The notes under the pieces are model-generated. The model ran no database searches and was not told the origin of the DNA. It saw only the letters and a program-made list of their open reading frames with translations. The translations under genes were made by a program, and so were the position numbers. From Candidatus Obscuribacterales bacterium (GTDB lineage Bacteria; Cyanobacteriota; Vampirovibrionia; Obscuribacterales; Obscuribacteraceae), in contig JAIETZ010000004.1 of the NCBI GenBank assembly GCA_019744775.1, positions 124,001-188,000 of the forward strand: a DNA stretch of 64,000 bases. The letters run 5' to 3'. Positions 7,034-45,322 of the stretch are shown in pieces; within the stretch, counting starts at the first letter, position 1, and each line of letters begins with the position of its first letter.

Positions 7034-7524
7034 ATCAACATTTCCTCGCGCGTTTTTGCAACTTTTACTTTCTTGGCTTTTATTTTCGGCAAGCGCACAA
7101 CTGTAACAGTGCACAATGCATTTTGTAGAATTGATGTGGACACGCTGCCCAAAATAAATTGGCTTACGCCACGGCGACCATGAGAGCCGACAAAGATCAT
7201 GTCGGCAGGCCATTCTTTGGCTAATTTCAATATTTCTTCCTTGGGATGCCCTTCCAAAACAACCTCCTCAATATGGGTCGTTTTGAGGGCTGTACGCATT
7301 CTTAAGGCAGTATGCCTAACAAGGGCTTTTGCTTGACGCCTAATCAGTTTAACATCAGACTCCAAAAGAGGAAGAAAAGTTATCTCACGACTGTCATCAA
7401 GCAATATCGGTTCTAGAACATTTACGACCTTGAATTCGGTACGTGGCGGCCATTGATGATTTATCACGTAGTCGGCAATGGCAGCGCCAAAAGCTTCGTC
7501 ATCGACAGCAATCAAAACTTTCAT
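7030..7524 (-). CDS. Universal stress protein (UspA family)
   Basis: A 164-residue Usp starting MKVLIAVDDEAFGAAIADYV, with GSHGRRGVSQFILGSVSTSIL as the ATP-binding signature and LCTVTVVRLP after it. GAGGA lies 4 nt before the ATG. It is the first gene of a two-Usp operon with 6536-7033. N-terminal sequence is close to that of the Usp at 6087-6527, which suggests local duplication. Confidence 0.92.
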   Translation of the reverse strand: MKVLIAVDDEAFGAAIADYVINHQWPPRTEFKVVNVLEPILLDDSREITFLPLLESDVKLIRRQAKALVRHTALRMRTALKTTHIEEVVLEGHPKEEILKLAKEWPADMIFVGSHGRRGVSQFILGSVSTSILQNALCTVTVVRLPKIKAKKVKVAKTREEMLI

Positions 7525-31609: not shown

Positions 31610-31667
31610 CAATTCGCACTTGATAACTACATGATATATTTAAGAGGTCGTACAATTACAAACTTAT

Positions 31668-31741
31668 CGGGACGTGGCGCAGCTTGGTAGCGCGGTTGCT
31701 TTGGGAGCAATAGGTCGCAGGTTCAAATCCTGTCGTCCCGA
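31668..31741 (+). tRNA. tRNA-Pro (anticodon UGG)
   Basis: A complete 74 nt cloverleaf: acceptor stem CGGGACG/CGTCCCG with discriminator A, D arm GCGC-loop-GCGC, anticodon stem GTTGC/GCAAT with loop TTTGGGA giving anticodon TGG (proline, CCA and wobble), and T arm GCAGG-TTCAAAT-CCTGT. No CCA is encoded. The gene is the integration target of the element that follows: its last 42 bases (31700-31741) are repeated at 45281-45322, and the element restores the 3' half, so the tRNA stays intact. Confidence 0.96.
31700..31741 (+). repeat. attL: 42 bp direct repeat (tRNA-Pro 3' half)
   Basis: Left copy of the 42 bp attachment repeat, identical to 45281-45322. It runs from the anticodon loop to the discriminator base. 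Flanking bases differ on both sides (31699 C versus 45280 A; 31742 A versus 45323 T), which fixes the repeat length. Crossover in the anticodon stem-loop region is usual for tyrosine integrases using tRNA genes. Confidence 0.95.
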
Positions 31742-31806
31742 AATTTAGTACTAGTGCGGCTTTCGAGCTTCTGACAATATCCAAAATTACGGCCTGTCTT
31801 TTCGCT

Positions 31807-31826: not shown

Positions 31827-31898
31827 TTTGCGTATGTGCTTTGCGAAAGATACTCGCATGACAATCTATACTCTCTCCAGTAGTTGCGCCCCCAGAAT

Positions 31899-33338
31899 AT
31901 GACCAATCCAAAGAAGAAAAAGATTGTTGTTATTGGTGCAATCGGCTTAAGCAGAGTGACAGACAGTTATAGCCTGCGATCATTTTCATGGGACAGCCTT
32001 CATTCGGTCAACAATCTTTCCGACTATGACTTCGTTATTATCAATTTGCTGCCACCACGTCCGAGTCTCTACAGTCACGATTGGACAAAATTCTTCGAGA
32101 AATTGACATTTCGTACTTTCCTAAACGTCGCAAGTCATGATGGACTGTTCATAATAATCGGCGATCCACGCCTTACTGTCCCGGTCCAACCACAACAAGG
32201 CGGAATAGTTGACATTCCATTTCTGAATTGGACCGGATTGACTTTTACCTGGGGGAAAGATGGTGGAGACACTGTCTATCCAACCAAAGAACTTGCACAG
32301 TCACAATTTGCGCCTTATATTGCCAAACTCAAACAATGGGACTATTTCATCGACAAAATCACTATCAATAGAAACGTGTTGACCGCTGCGCTAGGCAAAG
32401 AATATCACCACGCAATCGACGTTAAGTTTGACGAAACGTCACTGGCTAACACACGATTTCACAAATCTTTGGCACTCTATTATTTCTTTCATTTCAGTGC
32501 CAGAATTTCCGAATCCGAATTCACCGATGGAATGTCAACTTGGAAGCGGCTCGCAGAAGCACAAACAGTGGGCCCAGTTATTTTGCTTCCGGACCTGGGA
32601 ATTGGCAGCGACGAAACAATTCATTTGGTGCTCAACGATGTTTTGAACTTGCGTCTTTCAAATCCTGAGCCTGCATGGCTGCAGGACTATGTCGCTCCTG
32701 GGCAAGACGTCATCGACTCAACAATCAGAGACATTGACGCCCAGATTAACAGCCTTCAAGTTCAGCACACCACAAAAATTCAAGAAAGAGTCCAATCTCG
32801 CAGGTGCTTACGTCTTCTGTTCGATGTCGGAACTAACCTAGAAGAAATCGTAAAAGAAGTTCTGAATGACCTAGGCGCCATAGTTCATGAGCCGACTGAG
32901 AAAAACAAGGAAGACGGCTGGATTACCGTAGAAATAGACGGCAACATTCTCGAGGGCGTACTTGAAGTCAAAAGTACTGAAAGGCCTAACTTTGACGAAA
33001 GTGGACTTAGGCAATTGATGGACTGGAAAAACAGAGGCAAGTTGAAGCAGAAATTATACAAGGGCATATTCATAGGCAGTAATTCAGTCAAACTTCATCC
33101 ATCAGAGCGCTCGGAGGGTTTTGGACACTCGCTGATAGAAACCGCAAAAATAGACGACCTAGTAACAATTAAGTGCGATGACCTCTATTGTATTTACCAA
33201 TTACAGAAGCTTGCTCTGCTCGACCAAAAACTTTTCTGGAAGCAATTGTTTGAGACCAAAGGCGTCTTTAATGCATCACAGTTTCGCAAGCAACTGGAAG
33301 AAAATGCTTCTTTAGCCGAGGCAGCAGAAAAAGTATGA
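31899..33338 (+). CDS. Predicted PD-(D/E)XK-type nuclease, possible defence protein
   Basis: A 479-residue soluble protein without a family name that I can give. The N-terminal half (KKIVVIGAIG, SDYDFVIINLLPP) looks like an alpha/beta fold; the C-terminal part has a short coiled region (DIDAQINSLQVQHTTKIQERVQ) and then EDGWITVEIDG..LEGVLEVKSTERPNFDESGLRQLMDW, matching the E-x-K core and following Q of PD-(D/E)XK nucleases. A weak ribosome site precedes the ATG at 31899 (a TTG at 31884 is possible). It overlaps the next gene by ATGA, so the pair is translationally coupled. The place beside attL is the usual cargo slot. Confidence 0.65.
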   Translation: MTNPKKKKIVVIGAIGLSRVTDSYSLRSFSWDSLHSVNNLSDYDFVIINLLPPRPSLYSHDWTKFFEKLTFRTFLNVASHDGLFIIIGDPRLTVPVQPQQGGIVDIPFLNWTGLTFTWGKDGGDTVYPTKELAQSQFAPYIAKLKQWDYFIDKITINRNVLTAALGKEYHHAIDVKFDETSLANTRFHKSLALYYFFHFSARISESEFTDGMSTWKRLAEAQTVGPVILLPDLGIGSDETIHLVLNDVLNLRLSNPEPAWLQDYVAPGQDVIDSTIRDIDAQINSLQVQHTTKIQERVQSRRCLRLLFDVGTNLEEIVKEVLNDLGAIVHEPTEKNKEDGWITVEIDGNILEGVLEVKSTERPNFDESGLRQLMDWKNRGKLKQKLYKGIFIGSNSVKLHPSERSEGFGHSLIETAKIDDLVTIKCDDLYCIYQLQKLALLDQKLFWKQLFETKGVFNASQFRKQLEENASLAEAAEKV

Positions 33339-34327
33339 CCAAAGAGTATCAGCTATTCACCAAATTCAAAGAAGGCGGATTGAACTTTTTAAAACAGCTC
33401 AAAGACGAGGAAACCGCCGAATCTGAAATTCTCGACTTTAAGCGCGCCGAAACTGATTCTGGACCTCTCACCAGAAAGGATCTGCAAAACCTATCAATCA
33501 ACCTGAGTGGATTTGCCAATGCCGAAGGTGGTTTGATTGTTTGGGGCATCGATTGCAGAAGCCATGCTAACGACGACCCAGACACCGTCAAGGAGCTGCG
33601 CCCTATTAAAGACGTGAGTCTCTTCTACCAGCAACTAAAAACAAAATCCGCAGAAGTTCTTTCCCCTGGTATCAACGGAATAGAACATTGGCTTATTGAC
33701 TCAGACCAACCGGACGAAGGCTTTGTAGTAACTTACGTACCAAGGTGGGATGGCTACCCTCAAATGGCTACAGCAAAAGACGTACACCGATATTACTTTC
33801 GCGTCGGACCAAAAACTAACATCATGCCACCATACGTGCTTGCTGATCGTTTCGGTAGACGACCACAGCCAAAGCTGCAAGCAACATGGTTCGTTAGTGG
33901 AGTAGATGCAGTAAATGGAATTTATATACAAGCAGCGTCCATCGTTCTTGGCATTAGGAATGTGGGGGTCGGCACCGCAAACCATCCAGCGATATCGGTC
34001 AACAATTCTGCAAATGACGTGCCGCTAGATCTTCACAGCTATGGTGCGTATGGACTCGAAAAGAGAACGCACTTACGAGTGTCACCCAATGGACGTGACC
34101 CAGCGTTAACTTTCTTTGGCGGACTTATGAACATTGTCATTTATCCTGGCATGACATTGGATTTCACAACTTTTACGTGGGCAGTTGGCGACGATAATTT
34201 CCCGGATATCAAAATTCCCATCTCCTATTACTGCGATTCATTCCATGGAAGCGAAGAACTCCTAATCTGTGGTTCGGAAATTATGGAGGGTCTCAAGTGC
34301 CTAAATAGTCGTCTCAGACTGCGATAA
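33335..34327 (+). CDS. AlbA_2/Schlafen-type putative nucleic-acid-binding protein
   Basis: A 330-residue protein whose N-terminal 150 residues fit the AlbA_2 (divergent AAA_4, Schlafen-like) domain: ESEILDFKRAE, then LSINLSGFANAEGGLIVWGID, then HRYYFRVGPKTNIMPPYVLADRF. The domain occurs in nucleic-acid-binding or RNase proteins and in several anti-phage systems. The C-terminal part (about 190-330) has beta-rich stretches and is not recognised. It is coupled by ATGA to the nuclease-like gene, suggesting a two-protein system. An inverted repeat GTGTTTAT/ATAAACAC follows at 34343-34375. Confidence 0.7.
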   Translation: MTKEYQLFTKFKEGGLNFLKQLKDEETAESEILDFKRAETDSGPLTRKDLQNLSINLSGFANAEGGLIVWGIDCRSHANDDPDTVKELRPIKDVSLFYQQLKTKSAEVLSPGINGIEHWLIDSDQPDEGFVVTYVPRWDGYPQMATAKDVHRYYFRVGPKTNIMPPYVLADRFGRRPQPKLQATWFVSGVDAVNGIYIQAASIVLGIRNVGVGTANHPAISVNNSANDVPLDLHSYGAYGLEKRTHLRVSPNGRDPALTFFGGLMNIVIYPGMTLDFTTFTWAVGDDNFPDIKIPISYYCDSFHGSEELLICGSEIMEGLKCLNSRLRLR

Positions 34328-35849: not shown

Positions 35850-36248
35850 TTAACGAAAGATGAGTTTCTTTCTTCGTTTACGGGTAACAGCATCCTTTAC
35901 GGTTAACCGCTGTCTGCTCAATGGTCCTATGCCTATTTTTTGCCCCAGCGATAGTGCTCGATTCCAAGCCTTCTGCGATATTGCCAGCTGTGGATGTGCC
36001 TTAGGATTACCATTCTTGGCACTGATGATGATACCGTCCTTGTTGAGAATCAGATCAGCCTCAATAGCTGCTGCTACAGTGCGGCAATATTCAGCCAGGA
36101 TAGGCTTCCTTTCATCAGTGAGAAGCCCGAGCCTGTGTAATTCTGGTGCGCAGATATGCCATTGATTCAGCGCTTCGCCATTCAAATCAAATGGTGGTTC
36201 CAACAGTCCACCGGACAGTGCTTTTAATTGATTTCTATTTTTTGCCAT
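35850..36248 (-). CDS. P27-family phage terminase small subunit (copy 2)
   Basis: A 132-residue small terminase of the P27 type: LNQWHICAPELHRLGLLTDERKPILAEYC matches the conserved W..l.peL...g.lt..D...l..yc segment, followed by DLILNKDGIIISAKNGNPKAHPQLAISQKAWNRALSLGQKIGIGPLSRQRL with the NP and final gl.p.sR motifs. The C-terminus is basic (RKRRKKLIFR). Small terminases select the phage DNA for packaging and need a large subunit, which is absent here. GGAG lies 9 nt before the start. It is the last gene of the minus-strand operon, next to the other P27 gene. Confidence 0.8.
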   Translation of the reverse strand: MAKNRNQLKALSGGLLEPPFDLNGEALNQWHICAPELHRLGLLTDERKPILAEYCRTVAAAIEADLILNKDGIIISAKNGNPKAHPQLAISQKAWNRALSLGQKIGIGPLSRQRLTVKDAVTRKRRKKLIFR

Positions 36249-36274
36249 ATTGTATGTCTCCGGAAATTGATTGA

Positions 36275-36739
36275 TTAGGAAAAGAACTCCGCATCATCAT
36301 CAGAATCCTCCTCGGAGTCTGTTGAACCCGCGTCTACTCTAGTTCTACTTGAGGGCGTTAAACCGAATTCCTTGGCTATGGACTGAATTTCCTTAGACGC
36401 GTCGGCGGCAATTTTTACATAGGGATTTGCATAAAAGCTCCCTGTTGGTCTCATTAGCACAGCACCTTCCTTGGCAAGCTTTTTCTGGGCATCTAGCCAA
36501 GTTGCCCAGGCACCGCAGTAAAGCTCTAGCTGGCTCTGATCGATCTGAGTCGCAACGCCAAGCCTTTGAAGCTCCGGAACAATTCTAGCCCATTCTTTTT
36601 TGCCTTCGGTTGGCATCCAAGAAGGACAACTTAGATCCCCCGTTGCTGGTTTTGGTTCGTTTGGTAGCCGGCGCTTTCCTGGATTGCCGGCACGCTCTTT
36701 TAGAGCTCTTGATTTTGGAATTGGACCGGGTCTTGCCAT
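36275..36739 (-). CDS. P27-family phage terminase small subunit (copy 1)
   Basis: A 154-residue textbook P27 small terminase: MARPGPIPKSRALKERAGNPGKRRLPNEPKPA start, PSWMPTEGKKEWARIVPELQRLGVATQIDQSQLELYCGAW, then LMRPTGSFYANPYVKIAADASKEIQSIAKEFGLTPSSRTRV. ATG at 36739 has AAGGA 8 nt upstream; the frame continues upstream to 36823 without support. It differs strongly from copy 2, so they are not a recent duplication. In PICI satellites a terminase small subunit redirects the helper phage motor to satellite DNA, and no large subunit is needed. That is the likely role. Confidence 0.88.
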   Translation of the reverse strand: MARPGPIPKSRALKERAGNPGKRRLPNEPKPATGDLSCPSWMPTEGKKEWARIVPELQRLGVATQIDQSQLELYCGAWATWLDAQKKLAKEGAVLMRPTGSFYANPYVKIAADASKEIQSIAKEFGLTPSSRTRVDAGSTDSEEDSDDDAEFFS

Positions 36740-36839
36740 TGTGATTTCCTTTTGATTATTAGTGGTACTAAAAATGGTGCTCGATTTTAATTGTTTAATT
36801 CGCGGTCGTGCGCGCTGACCCAACCGCGCGGTCTTTTGA

Positions 36840-37271: not shown

Positions 37272-37574
37272 TTAGGGACTGGTCGATATTGAGGGCGACC
37301 CTGCAAAATCGTCAAATGTTTCTTTCGTTGGCTCTAGCCAATCCAGACTTCGTATATATGTTTGGCTCATTTGCGCTCGCTGTTCATCGGTCCAAGCAAG
37401 AGACCGAAAGTCGTCAAGAAGACTGAGGATTTCGTCCTTGCTTTCTGCCGCCTGGATGCGCGCCAGCCAGTGACCTAGGGTGTCGGTTGGCAATGAGACT
37501 TCCGCCAGATGTTTGGCATTCTTCTCTTGTTCTATTTGATTGGCTGCTTGGTCGTAACACTTCAGAAAGTCCAT
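37272..37574 (-). CDS. Hypothetical protein of the element
   Basis: A 100-residue acidic helical protein (MDFLKCYDQAANQIEQEKNAKHLAEV, IQAAESKDEILSLLDDFRSL), not recognised. GGGGAG lies 10 nt before the ATG. It follows the candidate origin region and precedes the zinc-ribbon gene (12 bp gap), all in the satellite's minus-strand operon. Confidence 0.6.
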   Translation of the reverse strand: MDFLKCYDQAANQIEQEKNAKHLAEVSLPTDTLGHWLARIQAAESKDEILSLLDDFRSLAWTDEQRAQMSQTYIRSLDWLEPTKETFDDFAGSPSISTSP

Positions 37575-37590: not shown

Positions 37591-37778
37591 GCGGAATTAG
37601 AGGATTTAGCGGAATTGATGACAGGGCTTGGCTTATAGTCTTTACACCTCTGCGAATTTGTGCGGATTTACAAACAGAATTAGTAAGAATCGCTTCTAAA
37701 TCCGCACAAATCCGCAAGTATCCAATTGCCATAAGCCTCATGGCGCTTACTATTCCTCCAATTCCGCTAAATCCGCAC
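37591..37778. repeat. Nested inverted repeats, candidate replication origin
   Basis: Inner pair: TGCGAATTTGTGCGGATTTA (37651-37670) against TAAATCCGCACAAATCCGCA (37697-37716), 19 of 20 complementary, 26 nt spacer. Middle pair: GGCTTAT (37630-37636) and ATAAGCC (37731-37737). Outer pair: GGATTTAGCGGAATTG (37602-37617) against CAATTCCGCTAAATCC (37759-37774). The shared unit GCGGATTTA recurs several times, so it also reads as iterons in both orientations. It lies just beyond the end of the helicase-like gene and overlaps its last codons. Candidate satellite origin; alternatively an RNA hairpin regulating the downstream genes. Confidence 0.55.
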
Positions 37779-39108
37779 CTATAGAAGTAAAACCAGGGGT
37801 AATAGACCACCAAGTAATTGCCTTGCCTTTACCTCGACCCCCACCTTCTTTGCGCTGAGTAATCCTGCCAACCGCTTGGAGATCCGTCAGAATCGCATTT
37901 AAGCGATCAGCCGGCAGGTGACCATTGAATAGCTCATTCAGTTGCGTTTGTGACTTGTCGCCTTCAGCTAGCGCCAAAAGGATTTTGTTTGAGTCTGGGT
38001 CGGCTTCGGTATCGCCGAATATATAGCGAGCCGAATTATGGCAGTACTGCCAGACAGCCAAAGCTGCCTCAAGGTGTTCTGGCAAGATGGTACTGCTCCG
38101 ATCCAGGAGTGCATAGATCAGTGCCAATCTAAGAACTTGAGCTTCAGCTCTGGCAGTGACAACGCCAAGAATGCCTGACTCATCCTGAGAAATCATTGGA
38201 TAAAGGGCTTTCCAAATCTCAATGGTGTTTGAGGCTAGCGATACTATCCCAATATCTGATGCGGTTTTGATTGCTTTAGCCAACTCGCTAGACAACTCAT
38301 CTACTAAATCACCATCCATTGCTTTAGGAAAAGGCACCATCTTCTGTCGTCTCGCGCACACCCAGAGAAATCTATTGGCTAACCCATTCCAAACATCCGA
38401 TGTCTGAAGCAATACTTTCAATTCGTGTCTAGTAATGTGTCCGATTATGCAGACGTGAGCACCAGTCGCTTTGATACGGTTTGATTTAGTTAAGGGTGCC
38501 ATGTCACCGTGATCCCACGATGTTCTCAGAATAGAAGAAAGAGTATTCCCATCGCGCTGTATGGCTTTAAGTGCTCCACCTAATTCACCCTCATAAACAA
38601 CCAGTCGCTTATCGTTTACGCCTTCGTCTTCGAGTTCACCGCTCTTGTTTCTCTTGTCACCGGGATCTCTGACGGCATACACCACACCCTCCCCGGAAGA
38701 AAGAGGACCGTGAGACACCTGCAATGGTGGTAATGCATGAATAGTTTCCGCTCTCTCAAAAATTCTCCGAATGGGGTCTGCTGAAGTCCCTTTGCGAGCA
38801 CGACTTGATGCACCAACTAGGGCTGACATCAGCCTTGGTGGATGATTAGTTTCACCAACACGAATTCTTGCTTGGGATCCGAATGCAGCGCCAGAGTGAG
38901 TTAGTGCTGTCAGTAAAATCGCCGCCGGATCTGCCTCACTATTTTCTGTTGCGGCTCTAACTATATTTCCAGCCAGTCCATATAACGCTTTGTCTGACAG
39001 GATGGGCCATGTGGATGGCGCAGCGGACTCAAGTTTTTCCGGTGTGCCGCTCGTGGATTCGATGGTGAATTCTGGCGTCTCATTGATAATGTTCTTGAGG
39101 CTATTCAT
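37750..39108 (-). CDS. DUF3987-type (YfjI-like) helicase/ATPase-like replication protein
   Basis: A 452-residue protein of the DUF3987 type, common next to primases in phage satellites and integrated elements. Recognised segments: AAILLTALTHSGAAFGSQARI, SALVGASSRARKGTS (a Walker-like loop region), VYEGELGGALKAIQRDGNTLSSILRTSWDHGD, IIGHITRHELKVLLQ, GLANRFLWVCARR, and a C-terminal winged-helix-like tail (LLALAEGDKSQTQLNELFNGHL). It probably acts with the primase at the origin. It overlaps the primase stop by one base (TAATG) on the minus strand. Confidence 0.75.
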   Translation of the reverse strand: MNSLKNIINETPEFTIESTSGTPEKLESAAPSTWPILSDKALYGLAGNIVRAATENSEADPAAILLTALTHSGAAFGSQARIRVGETNHPPRLMSALVGASSRARKGTSADPIRRIFERAETIHALPPLQVSHGPLSSGEGVVYAVRDPGDKRNKSGELEDEGVNDKRLVVYEGELGGALKAIQRDGNTLSSILRTSWDHGDMAPLTKSNRIKATGAHVCIIGHITRHELKVLLQTSDVWNGLANRFLWVCARRQKMVPFPKAMDGDLVDELSSELAKAIKTASDIGIVSLASNTIEIWKALYPMISQDESGILGVVTARAEAQVLRLALIYALLDRSSTILPEHLEAALAVWQYCHNSARYIFGDTEADPDSNKILLALAEGDKSQTQLNELFNGHLPADRLNAILTDLQAVGRITQRKEGGGRGKGKAITWWSITPGFTSIGADLAELEE

Positions 39109-40166
39109 TAGCTCGCCACCTCGTTGCTCATTACGTAGTCAAACCAATCAGTACCAGCTCTAGGTGGCAAGAGCAGTTTGACCTTCTTGTGAGCGTACAG
39201 CAGACGAGTTGCGAGCTTTTGAGCCGCTGCGAGTCCAACGTTGTTCATGTCATGGTCGGCAAATATCATTACTTGCTTCACGGTTTCCGGTACCTCTAAG
39301 GAAGCCATGCCACCGGCGGAAACTGTGGACCACACAGGTAGACCAGTAGTTATATGACAGGCAAGAGCGGTCTCAATACCTTCTGCTATTCCAAGGCTCT
39401 CAGAGGCCTCTTGCAGGCGGATCGCTCCACCTCTAGTGGCTCCTTCGTAGATTGGCTTCATGAGCTTCTTAGGCTTTGCTACAGGTGCTTTCTGTCCGTC
39501 CAGGGTTAGATATGTGCGGTGCAAACAAACTGGCTGATTATCGGATGACATAACCAAGGCCAACATTGACGGAAATGTGCCGAGACAATTATCTCCGTCA
39601 AAATAGTCCAGCTCAGGATGATAACGTAAACAAGCTGGTATATCATCCAGCTTTAGTTCCCTAGTCTTGGTCAGATACTTATGAATCGGATCTCCTGATG
39701 CAACCGATCTGGCTTCTGACCAGAATCTATTCAATATCCGAAGTTGCTCTCCGTTTGCTTGTCTATTGGATGTACCGACATTTACTGCTCTGGAAATCGG
39801 CATAGCTGGTAAGCAAGGCTTTCCAGAGAGTCCGAGATAGTCTGCGACAAGGTTTAAGGAGTAAGTAATTTCAATGCCCCGATAGAGCGCAAGCAACTTG
39901 AATCCATCGCCGGCACCACAGTGACTACAAAAAAATGTACCGTCGTCGTTCTTGTTATCGAATCTAAATCTATCTTTGCCACCACAGCAAGGACATGGTC
40001 CATGTTTACGTCTCAGCAGGTGTGACGGCATACCAAGCGATGTGAGTATCTGCAGCCAGTGCCCGTTCGCCACCTGTTTGACTTCTTTGAAGTCCAGTCG
40101 TTTATAATTTGTACGTGCTATTTGATTCGCCCCGCTTGCTTGAGAGGGGCTTTCATTTGTATTCAT
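39108..40166 (-). CDS. Toprim-domain primase (P4 alpha / phage primase type)
   Basis: A 352-residue primase: a zinc-finger block CPCCGGKDRFRFDNKNDDGTFFCSHCGAGDGF (four Cys, residues about 58-90) followed by a primase core and a Toprim domain with GIAEGIETALACH and MIFADHDMNNVGLAAAQKLA. It makes primers for satellite or plasmid replication. The N-terminal block resembles the P4 primase zinc finger. AAGGAG lies 10 nt before the ATG. It heads the replication pair with the DUF3987 protein. Confidence 0.88.
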   Translation of the reverse strand: MNTNESPSQASGANQIARTNYKRLDFKEVKQVANGHWLQILTSLGMPSHLLRRKHGPCPCCGGKDRFRFDNKNDDGTFFCSHCGAGDGFKLLALYRGIEITYSLNLVADYLGLSGKPCLPAMPISRAVNVGTSNRQANGEQLRILNRFWSEARSVASGDPIHKYLTKTRELKLDDIPACLRYHPELDYFDGDNCLGTFPSMLALVMSSDNQPVCLHRTYLTLDGQKAPVAKPKKLMKPIYEGATRGGAIRLQEASESLGIAEGIETALACHITTGLPVWSTVSAGGMASLEVPETVKQVMIFADHDMNNVGLAAAQKLATRLLYAHKKVKLLLPPRAGTDWFDYVMSNEVAS

Positions 40167-40438: not shown

Positions 40439-40675
40439 TTAACCCTCCTGCCCAGAATCGCTGGTGCTAGTGCGCTTATGACTTTCCATCCAGTGATGAA
40501 CTTCTATCAGGTCATATCGAACGGCGGCGCGCAGACCCTCGCCTTTGATGAAAGGAATTCCACCGCCTACAACTCGGTCGCGCTGAATCTTCGCCCGCGA
40601 CCAGCCGGTAATTCTCGACAGCTCTTGTTCGTCGATGTACCGGGTTTCCATTTTGTGCATACTTGCGTTTTGCAT
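40439..40675 (-). CDS. AlpA/excisionase-type MerR-like DNA-binding protein
   Basis: A 78-residue protein with an AlpA/Xis-type helix-turn-helix: YIDEQELSRITGWSRAKIQRDRVVGGGIPFIKGEGLRAAVRYDLIEVHHWMESHKR. AlpA is a satellite activator and can act as an excisionase. GGGGG lies 6 nt before ATG 40675. It lies just upstream of the replication genes, as in P4-like and PICI elements where AlpA and primase follow integrase genes. The upstream gap contains several GC[AG]TAA-type dyads. Confidence 0.8.
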   Translation of the reverse strand: MQNASMHKMETRYIDEQELSRITGWSRAKIQRDRVVGGGIPFIKGEGLRAAVRYDLIEVHHWMESHKRTSTSDSGQEG

Positions 40676-41564: not shown

Positions 41565-41839
41565 GCTTTGATGCGCCTCCTTCGTGACGCTCCTTCAAAT
41601 TGATTGCCAAGCCAGATGAAGAAGGTGTTCACTTTTCGGGAGCTACCCTAGGCTGGCGAACCCATATTGTAAGTTGACCCGTGCGTGGTTGAGTGGCATC
41701 TGGCTAAGAATCCCCAAAACGCAAGCTGCATAAGGGGAGCGCTAAGTGCGCACGACGCTAAGAATGGATTGTCAAAGGTTGTGGTAAGATGAAATTGGGG
41801 CTGCCAGTAAGGTGGCTATTTTAGTTTCGAGGATTTGCA

Positions 41840-42293: not shown

Positions 42294-43631
42294 CTACGTG
42301 TTACGTCGCATGAATAATTCCGGTTCGACGCCCAACCGACCGGCGAGTCGCTGGGCGTTTTTCTTGCTCAACAAGTGCTTGCCGGATAACAACTCAGAGA
42401 CCGTGCTTTTTGAGCCTAGGATTTTCACCAAATCATTCCGCGTCAGTCCTTGTTCCCTCATCAGCCATTGAAGTGCTTCATGTGGTGGCTTATGGGCAAG
42501 TGTTGCTCGCTGTTTCTGTTCATAAACTCCAATCAATGTGGCAAGAACCTCAAAGTAATCTCGTTCATCAGGTTCTGTGATGTTTCTGCGAAGAGATTGA
42601 CGATGTACGTGCTTGGCTGTCTCGTACTCGCTTTCGGATTGTATTAGGCGTAAGGGTAGCTTTGAAAACCAGCCGAGATATCTTGAATAGTCTTTGAAGC
42701 GCCTCATAGTGGTGACAAGCGCTTCTAGCTCATCTGGTGTCACACTTTTCTTGGAAAGCAAGCTCATGCTTTCCTCCGGCAAATCGTTGAACCATTGCTG
42801 TTGTACTAACTGTCTAGCTTCTAGCTCAGCATCTTTGCCAGCAATCGCGTATACCTTCATCGTTGTCACCAACGACTTGTGATTCATAGCCCCTTGAATA
42901 ATTGTCGCGCTGACATTCAAGTCAGCCATTGCTGCGGCAAGCGAGCGTCTTAAATCATGTGGACGAGCATACGGTATCTCCGCGGCAGCAATAAGGCTGC
43001 GCCATGATTTATACAACCAACCCATGTGACCCTCACCCTGTGCGGACGGAAAGACCCATGGCGTGTCATTCTTGCGCGAATTGATAATATTCAATTCATT
43101 AGGACCTAAGGGGATTAATTGCGGCGTGCCATTTTTTGTTTTGGGAATAATCCACCATCGAGCTTCAAGATTCAGATGTTCCCAGCGCATGGATAATAGA
43201 CTGTTTCTGCGGACACCGGTAAACAGTGAGAGCATCACATAGTCGTGGAGATCTTTGTTTTCTCGCTTTTGCAAGAGTCGATTTAGCGTTTGAACTTCTG
43301 ATGCGCTTAGTCGTCTAGTTCTGACATTCTCTGGAAATTGTTCTACCAGAGCAAATGGATTGGGTTCAGAGCACAGTTGCCATTTTATGCCTTTATTCCA
43401 GGCCGCTTTAAGCGTCTGTAAAACCCTGTTGGATTGAATAGGTGACCGTTCACCGATTCGCTGATGCAGCGCTTCGGCAACGGTAATATCAATCTCGGAT
43501 AGCTTTCTGGCGAACATGTAACTAACATGCTTATTTAAGGTTTGCTCAGTAGCTGTTGCGGTAACGCGGCGCTTATACATGTGTCTATGCAAATAGGCAT
43601 CGATCAAGTCTTTTAGAGTTAGATCGTTCAT
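42294..43631 (-). CDS. Tyrosine recombinase fused to a HigA-type antitoxin domain
   Basis: A 445-residue fusion. Residues 1-280 are a phage-type tyrosine recombinase with all catalytic positions: Arg141 (TGVRRNSL), His225 and Arg228 (HDLRR), His251 (MNHKS), Tyr261 (KVYA). Residues about 330-445 match a full HigA antitoxin: ESEYETAKHVHRQ, ERDYFEVLATLIGVYEQK, then the HTH (HEALQWLMREQGLTRNDL, LGSKSTVSELLSGKHLL, LAGRLGVEPELF). HigA proteins bind their own promoter and neutralise HigB; no HigB-like gene is seen nearby. An 18 bp palindrome lies 63 bp upstream. Most likely a self-regulating excision or inversion factor. Confidence 0.85.
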   Translation of the reverse strand: MNDLTLKDLIDAYLHRHMYKRRVTATATEQTLNKHVSYMFARKLSEIDITVAEALHQRIGERSPIQSNRVLQTLKAAWNKGIKWQLCSEPNPFALVEQFPENVRTRRLSASEVQTLNRLLQKRENKDLHDYVMLSLFTGVRRNSLLSMRWEHLNLEARWWIIPKTKNGTPQLIPLGPNELNIINSRKNDTPWVFPSAQGEGHMGWLYKSWRSLIAAAEIPYARPHDLRRSLAAAMADLNVSATIIQGAMNHKSLVTTMKVYAIAGKDAELEARQLVQQQWFNDLPEESMSLLSKKSVTPDELEALVTTMRRFKDYSRYLGWFSKLPLRLIQSESEYETAKHVHRQSLRRNITEPDERDYFEVLATLIGVYEQKQRATLAHKPPHEALQWLMREQGLTRNDLVKILGSKSTVSELLSGKHLLSKKNAQRLAGRLGVEPELFMRRNT

Positions 43632-43863: not shown

Positions 43864-45105
43864 TCAATTAGCAACGACCACAATCGGCTCGCTATCCTTC
43901 AACTCTTCCTTCTTGATAAATTTGTCCAAAAAGTAAGCGGAAATTTTCTGCATAGGCATTCGTAATCTTTCAACGTCGGTAACTATATACCCGAGAGTAA
44001 CGTCGGAACTATTGCGATGATTTGCCAATTTCTTAACTGCATAATGCGGTATATCCAGCTTTTCCGCAGTTGTCAGAAAAGTGCGACGCAAGTCGTGAAC
44101 CATAAACTTAACACCCGAATTCTTGATAATCCTTTCCACAGCTCGCTTGCATTCGACCATATGAGTGTTGCTTTCTTCACCAGGAAAAACATACGGGTTA
44201 TCTATTCTGATTACCTTTGCACGCTCACCCAGCAAGGCTATTAGATAGTCAGATAAGGGAAGCCGATGCTCATCATGATTCTTTGCCTCTTCAGATGGAA
44301 TTGTTAGGGTCTTGTTTTTGAAATCAACATTGCACCATTTGAGCTTTGAAGCTTCACCACGCCTCAAACCAGTAAATAGGCACAGGAGAAAGAAATCACG
44401 CATCACGTCGTTCTCCAGAGACATTACAGCCTGATACCAATCAGGAAGCTGATGGTCGTGAATTACCGATTGTCTACGTGGAATGCGATTCCATGCCTTT
44501 ATCTGAGATAAACGGCGAACTGGATTGTCCTGCAAGATGGAATGTCCGTCGCTATCCTCATATGTAGCCAGAGCATAGTTGAACAGACAACGCAGTACAC
44601 GCATGACTTGATGCGCCTGAGCTTCTCCCTTACCACGTGGACCATTGGCATTGGAGAGCTGCTTGTGCCGGCGTTCCACCATATCCTTGGTAATCTCAAC
44701 AATAGGCTTGTTTTGCCATTCGGTGAGACACCTGTTCACCGCGCCATCGTATAGCCTGATGGTCGTCGGTCTAAGATTTTTGGATTGCTTGTAGGACTCT
44801 AAGACCTCTGCAAGGGTAATCGACTTTGCTTTCTGCTCGGCCTTGCGAGTGTTTGGATTGATTCCCTTTTCCATCAATCTAAGCAAGTCCTTCGCTTCAT
44901 CCTCTGCTTGCTTAGGTGTCCAGTTACCATGTTTGCCAATCTTGACCCGACAAACCTTGCCTTTGACGCGTCCTTGAGCAAAGTAGGTCTTGCTACCGGC
45001 AGTAACCCGCAAGCCAAACCCCTTGAGTTCTTCATCGAAGTATAGTTTCGCTCCGGTCGCTGGGTGTTCCACTTTATCGACGAATGTTTTGTTAAGTCTT
45101 GGCAT
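43864..45105 (-). CDS. int: Tyrosine integrase of the element (DUF4102 arm-domain type)
   Basis: A 413-residue P4-like integrase: arm-binding DUF4102-type N-terminus (YFDEELKGFGLRVTAGSKTYFAQGRVKGKVCRVKIG), a core-binding middle, and a catalytic domain with Arg248 (TGLRRGEASKL), His337 and Arg340 (HDLRR), His363 and Tyr373 (LGYI). Next to attR, reading away from it, it is the integrase expected to act at the tRNA-Pro site. Arm-like repeats occur at 31807 and 45142. No good Shine-Dalgarno is visible for its ATG at 45105. Confidence 0.93.
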   Translation of the reverse strand: MPRLNKTFVDKVEHPATGAKLYFDEELKGFGLRVTAGSKTYFAQGRVKGKVCRVKIGKHGNWTPKQAEDEAKDLLRLMEKGINPNTRKAEQKAKSITLAEVLESYKQSKNLRPTTIRLYDGAVNRCLTEWQNKPIVEITKDMVERRHKQLSNANGPRGKGEAQAHQVMRVLRCLFNYALATYEDSDGHSILQDNPVRRLSQIKAWNRIPRRQSVIHDHQLPDWYQAVMSLENDVMRDFFLLCLFTGLRRGEASKLKWCNVDFKNKTLTIPSEEAKNHDEHRLPLSDYLIALLGERAKVIRIDNPYVFPGEESNTHMVECKRAVERIIKNSGVKFMVHDLRRTFLTTAEKLDIPHYAVKKLANHRNSSDVTLGYIVTDVERLRMPMQKISAYFLDKFIKKEELKDSEPIVVVAN

Positions 45106-45161: not shown

Positions 45162-45280
45162 GATTATTTCACAACCACTAAAAAGGAATCGTTAATTTTC
45201 ACGCTAAAAGCCAAGCCCCATAAGGCTTCTGAGCAATATTTCAAAAACATTCAAAACCTGTATAAATCATTCGCTACTGA

Positions 45281-45322
45281 TTTGGGAGCAATAGGTCGCA
45301 GGTTCAAATCCTGTCGTCCCGA
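45281..45322 (+). repeat. attR: 42 bp direct repeat (tRNA-Pro 3' half)
   Basis: Right copy of the tRNA-Pro 3' half, identical to 31700-31741. It lacks the 5' part of a tRNA gene, so it is not a second tRNA. It ends 8 bp before the stop of the TolC-like gene, so the undisturbed chromosome would have the tRNA gene and that convergent gene nearly touching. Confidence 0.95.

Follow-up and report, generated by a model that had tools for sequence, protein, structure and literature searches.

In the SaPIs of Staphylococcus aureus the replication origin lies just 3' of rep and carries iterons that are read by the C-terminal domain of Rep (PMC7581432), and the origins of Gram-negative PICIs likewise contain iterons and directly follow rep on its 3' side (PMC6092414). 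One of these, that of EcCICFT073, has two iteron sets around a centre described as A+T-rich, in an element with the gene order int, alpA, pri/rep, ori, terS (PMC6092414). Iteron origins placed 3' of a self-loading helicase are a known kind. Phage P4 alpha combines a TOPRIM primase, a helicase and a winged helix in one polypeptide, and its winged helix binds the origin repeats (PMC4234260), while the archaeal plasmid pRN1 requires an intact 100-nt stem-loop, an element with inverted symmetry just 3' of its primase-helicase gene (PMC4234260). PICMI satellites of Vibrionaceae, for which DUF3987 and DUF5906 models served as search profiles, are described as small elements at fis that encode int, alpA and a primase; the part of the published account used here gives no description of an origin (PMC10803314). 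For DUF3987 domains it was predicted earlier that they are helicases, and that the winged helix that follows might read origins (PMC5862659).

In the window (the whole 64-kb stretch of DNA analysed here) we observed two 45-bp direct repeats, 44/45 identical, at tRNA-Pro; since these repeats (31697-31741 and 45278-45322) form its boundaries, the island between them is 13.6 kb long. Its features are as follows:

31697-31741, + strand: att repeat, the 3' part of tRNA-Pro (31667-31742), 44/45 identical to the other end
35850-36248, - strand: second terminase small subunit
36275-36823, - strand: terminase small subunit
37272-37574, - strand: small ORF adjoining the iteron array; a similar-looking ORF (by eye) lies 3' of the helicase in the related loci L011 and L056
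37750-39108, - strand: DUF3987 helicase, the proposed initiator, with an MCM-fold AAA+ ATPase (residues ~34-365) and a winged helix (~370-436)
39108-40166, - strand: TOPRIM (DnaG-type) primase with a zinc ribbon, upstream of the helicase
40439-40675, - strand: AlpA/excisionase-like small DNA-binding protein (weak alpA match, E 3e-5, PHROGs)
41592-41657, - strand: int-alpA RNA (RF02996)
42294-43631, - strand: tyrosine recombinase with a C-terminal HTH_3
43864-45105, - strand: island integrase with a P4-type arm-binding domain
45278-45322, + strand: att repeat at the far island end

The element has an integrase and its own att site, its genes follow the PICI order of alpA-type regulator (by the weak match listed), primase, rep, candidate ori and terS, and its main ORFs (31.7-45.3 kb) gave no match to genes for capsid, tail or lysis. 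We regard it as a phage-satellite-like island, which extends PICI-like elements to a non-photosynthetic lineage of the cyanobacteria, Candidatus Obscuribacterales. A possible helper phage is an HK97-type prophage in the same genome (L162 = G000:C2, 119000-138000; L161), which has terminase, portal, protease, capsid and tail genes; its terminase small subunit shares 41% identity with that of the island.

We noted several further features of the island. The two terminase small subunit genes (35850-36823) stand in tandem and are mutually diverged, with no other head or packaging gene in the island, and the HTH_3-fused tyrosine recombinase adjoins the separate P4-type integrase. The int-alpA RNA (RF02996) sits here in a Candidatus Obscuribacterales island. 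A Schlafen/AlbA_2-domain protein (33335-34327, + strand) adjoins a 484-residue protein (31884-33338), and the two may be a cargo or defence pair.

In the predicted structure of the helicase (mean pLDDT 89) the ATPase domain is, among solved folds, most like those of MCM helicases (Z up to 19.2 over ~275 residues), and a winged helix forms the C-terminus, so that the protein is predicted to combine, as an initiator does, a helicase fold with a C-terminal DNA-binding domain. Residues 99-109 form an unusual conserved P-loop-like stretch, GASSxARKGTS, in which R105, K106 and G107 are invariant in 56 sequences. Searches of plasmid and phage collections with the helicase found distant relatives only, and a nucleotide search of the phage collection gave no relatives.

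Like the SaPI rep-ori, the array comprises multiple short iterons directly downstream of a helicase gene, whose product is the proposed initiator here and a self-loading initiator in SaPI, and both kinds of element have a separate primase gene nearby; however, the Rep proteins of SaPIs are of other families (DUF927, Primase_Cterm/D5) whereas the helicase of the island is DUF3987, and unlike in SaPI the units are 9-10 bp and extend into the helicase coding sequence. With EcCICFT073 the island has in common the gene order, the position directly 3' of rep and two iteron sets around a centre, although its central A+T enrichment is weak and its primase and helicase are separate genes. It has the same three parts as P4 alpha but splits them over two genes, with a helicase that is MCM-like. 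The pRN1 element resembles the array in position and inverted symmetry, but it is a stem-loop without iterons and belongs with a different class of primase and helicase. To PICMI the island is likened by description, not by sequence.

The array extends over 37591-37776 and comprises ten 9-bp units with the consensus GCGGAWTTR, arranged in four groups in a mirrored 3-2/2-3 layout:

37591-37617, + strand: left outer iteron triplet GCGGAATTA-GAGGATTTA-GCGGAATTG, 9-bp spacing
37652-37670, + strand: left inner iteron doublet GCGAATTTG-T-GCGGATTTA, 10-bp spacing, mirroring the right inner doublet
37671-37696, no strand: central spacer of 26 bp separating the convergent inner doublets, a candidate site of melting or loading
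37697-37715, - strand: right inner iteron doublet GCGGATTTG-T-GCGGATTTA, 10-bp spacing
37750-37776, - strand: right outer iteron triplet GCGGATTTA-GCGGAATTG-GAGGAATAG, 9-bp spacing, the last helicase codons and the stop

Within 196 bp there are 9 sites that fit GCGGAWTTR with up to one mismatch, whereas 300 dinucleotide shuffles of the segment had 0.34 such sites on average and never more than 2; the tenth unit, GAGGAATAG, is the remaining member of the right outer triplet. The word GCGGATTTA occurs five times in the whole window (0.6 expected), with three of the five inside the array, and one exact pattern search of the 4.1-Mb genome found no close pairs of the GCGGAWTTR word elsewhere. As codons, the right triplet reads GCG GAT TTA GCG GAA TTG GAG GAA TAG (ADLAELEE-stop), the end of the helicase gene. 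An earlier note on this DNA had placed the array immediately after that gene; its last three units are in fact the last nine codons of the gene, stop included, so that the array does not start directly after it. The A+T content between the mapped inner sites is 68%, against 54% for the locus, and we saw no inflection of GC skew at the array, where a change had been looked for.

The same note had described three nested complementary pairs, and all of these are present: outer arms of 16 nt (37602-37617 and 37759-37774) with 100% complementarity, inner arms TGCGAATTTGTGCGGATTTA and TGCGGATTTGTGCGGATTTA that are complementary at 19/20 positions, and a middle pair, GGCTTAT/ATAAGCC (37630-37636 and 37731-37737), which lies outside the iteron units. 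The outer and inner pairs are the matching halves of iteron groups. The repeats are genuine, well beyond what chance would produce, and from their sequence they are best read as iterons rather than as three nested hairpin stems.

Searching the closest relatives, we found that an element of the same genus (L006/L056), the helicase of which is 51% identical, has GCGGAWTTR-like units in the same 3-2/2-3 layout at the 3' end of its helicase gene. Its inner arms have 4 mismatches in 21 positions while the iteron units are kept, therefore the units are better kept than the pairing, and the 7-bp middle pair is absent from this relative. The most similar helicase, at 60% identity, is from another genus (L004/L011), and the L011 array has a single clear set, GCGTAATTG-GCGAATTTG-CGGAATTG, with a second, faded one in the helicase tail.

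A wider survey was based on two sets of loci drawn from pattern-based scans and phylogenetically uneven, in which repeated 9-mers were scored on both strands in 600-bp windows. In the first set of 60 loci from many phyla (this window and 59 others, with the helicase sequence as the sole search criterion) the helicase 3' window was the most repeat-rich of its locus in 29, against 1.36 expected (Poisson 2e-28). The held-out set comprised 58 viral loci previously unused, which were scored in the same way and with a core motif kept fixed, and here the helicase 3' window ranked top in 27, against 1.27 expected (2e-26); the near-duplicates L017/L020, L096/L098 and L109/L110 are counted in these rank tests. 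The suggestion that related elements would carry iterons was thus borne out, with the same word and layout in the same-genus relative and, at about half of 118 related loci, the strongest iteron array at the very 3' end of the helicase gene; at the other half, approximately, the array was not the top-ranked repeat. We found no iteron arrays 3' of more distant DUF3987 genes, namely E. coli yfjI and those of the Actinobacteria phages P318, Ponzi, Ibantik and Success, and the signature therefore belongs to part of the DUF3987 family.

Although the array words vary by locus (GCGAAATAA, GCGACAAAA, ACGAATTAA, GCGAATTTG and others), an RCG(A/G) core is common to them: RCGA was present in 32/45 array words and 36/152 control words (p = 2e-8), and RCGnnnWW in 30/45 arrays and 20/152 control windows (p = 9e-12). 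Tandem RCGR sites in the held-out set averaged 0.84 per window at the helicase 3' end and 0.05 elsewhere (p = 0.003), while a reversed-motif negative control in that set gave p = 0.30. The observed unit spacings are 8, 9 and 10 bp, besides spacings of two units. Both orientations are present in 55 of 61 clear arrays, the first unit of which has a median position of +2 from the stop codon, with 26 arrays starting inside the gene. The central spacer is not clearly enriched in A+T, with an excess of 0.07 in the first set (p = 0.27) and 0.056 in the pooled sets (p = 0.02). Iteron similarity tracks helicase similarity (Mantel p = 0.0005). We also considered assigning iteron specificity to the winged helix, but a partial Mantel test does not separate the winged helix from the ATPase.

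From the arrays, their conserved place and layout, their common RCG(A/G) core and the predicted folds reported here, we read 37591-37776 as the probable replication origin of the phage-satellite-like island, bound by its own DUF3987 helicase (probability about 0.85). The earlier proposal of a candidate origin here gains support both from the recurrence of iterons at the 3' ends of related helicase genes and from the analogy with SaPI and Gram-negative PICI origins, in which there are also direct short repeats at the helicase 3' end and two unit sets around a centre. In the mechanism we propose, the helicase would bind the ten 9-bp iterons via its C-terminal winged helix, and the two convergent half-arrays would place two helicase assemblies face to face across the 26-bp spacer. 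The DNA would open at this spacer, where the MCM-like proteins may load as two rings and unwind outward, and the adjoining TOPRIM primase would make primers for the host polymerase. We infer both replication from the segment and its direction.

One alternative is that the origin works by structure, as an extruded hairpin or single-stranded stem-loop of the kind proposed for pRN1, with the sequence repeats secondary; a long single-stranded hairpin for initiation had also been suggested in the earlier note. The essential pRN1 stem-loop is a precedent, and the segment as single-stranded DNA folds at z = -6.5, with none of 200 shuffles equally stable, and that of the same-genus relative also folds well (z = -5.3), but such folding is expected of every inverted iteron set. 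Across the pooled loci, matching is ~50% both for the 4 nt on the inside of the inner arms and for the 5 nt on the outside of the outer arms, a value confounded by units longer than 9 nt. Flank-inclusive tests hinted at mirror symmetry (p = 0.04; pooled p = 7e-5), and we set these comparisons aside because inner and outer units have different flanks according to their place in the array; with the iteron cores alone the effect was gone, mirror pairs having 1.42 mismatches and non-mirror pairs 1.35 (p = 0.83). Arm spacing was equal on both sides in only 14/26 cases. Together with the mismatched inner arms of the relative, in which the iterons are kept, these results show no arms conserved as structure rather than sequence, as a pRN1-type element would have, and in SCCmec the binding of Cch2 is left intact by deletion of the inverted repeat and abolished by deletion of the direct repeats (PMC7581432). 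We consider a hairpin origin improbable; judged from these sequence comparisons, the conserved feature is the iteron unit.

It is also conceivable that the helicase, the AlpA-like protein or another regulator uses the array to control transcription or copy number, with replication starting elsewhere. Plasmid iteron arrays also serve copy control, and we found one promoter-like site, which was weak and no better than chance. This we hold to be highly improbable, since the array is at the 3' end of a gene and not upstream of the operon, recurs in this position across many phyla, and similarly working elements use the 3' position as origin. That the array is a transcription terminator or RNA element closing the helicase operon is scarcely credible despite the stable folding of the segment as RNA (z = -6.8), as there is no terminator-like site on the helicase strand, Rfam gives no match at the array, and the tandem direct 9-bp units, some within the coding region, would be left unexplained.

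Returning to the reading as a helicase-bound iteron origin, we lean, with moderate confidence, to a broader proposal: the MCM-like DUF3987 clade, found in many bacterial phyla and viral contigs, would initiate at one ancestral iteron type (9 bp, RCG(A/G), mirrored half-arrays, helicase 3' end). Published mentions of DUF3987 are mostly in genome descriptions, besides work on primases (PMC5862659) and satellites (PMC10803314). In the literature searched, which included few subscription papers, we found no description of an origin for a DUF3987 replicon (which is not proof of novelty) or of the common RCG(A/G) iteron type, and no match for "DUF3987" and "iteron" together. If the proposal is true, sequence alone could suffice to locate the origins of many satellites and prophage-like elements that are as yet uncharacterised. 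DUF3987 proteins occur in satellites, prophages and islands, and an origin signature would help to delimit satellites and make the earlier origin-reading prediction (PMC5862659) directly testable; the DUF3987 helicase would itself be a tractable example of an MCM-like helicase, probably a self-loading one, for which a DNA site is defined. A practical test system would be the locus of the cultured Bradyrhizobium sp. BTAi1 (L037, ~7275-7360), where GCGACnAAA-like units in both orientations lie 3' of the DUF3987 gene. At two other loci we saw the array repeated beyond a short ORF, in L024 (~+399 to +442 from the helicase stop), where the helicase gene tail is repeated as well, and in L039 at ~+444 to +468, and these second arrays possibly represent an insertion or recombination site.
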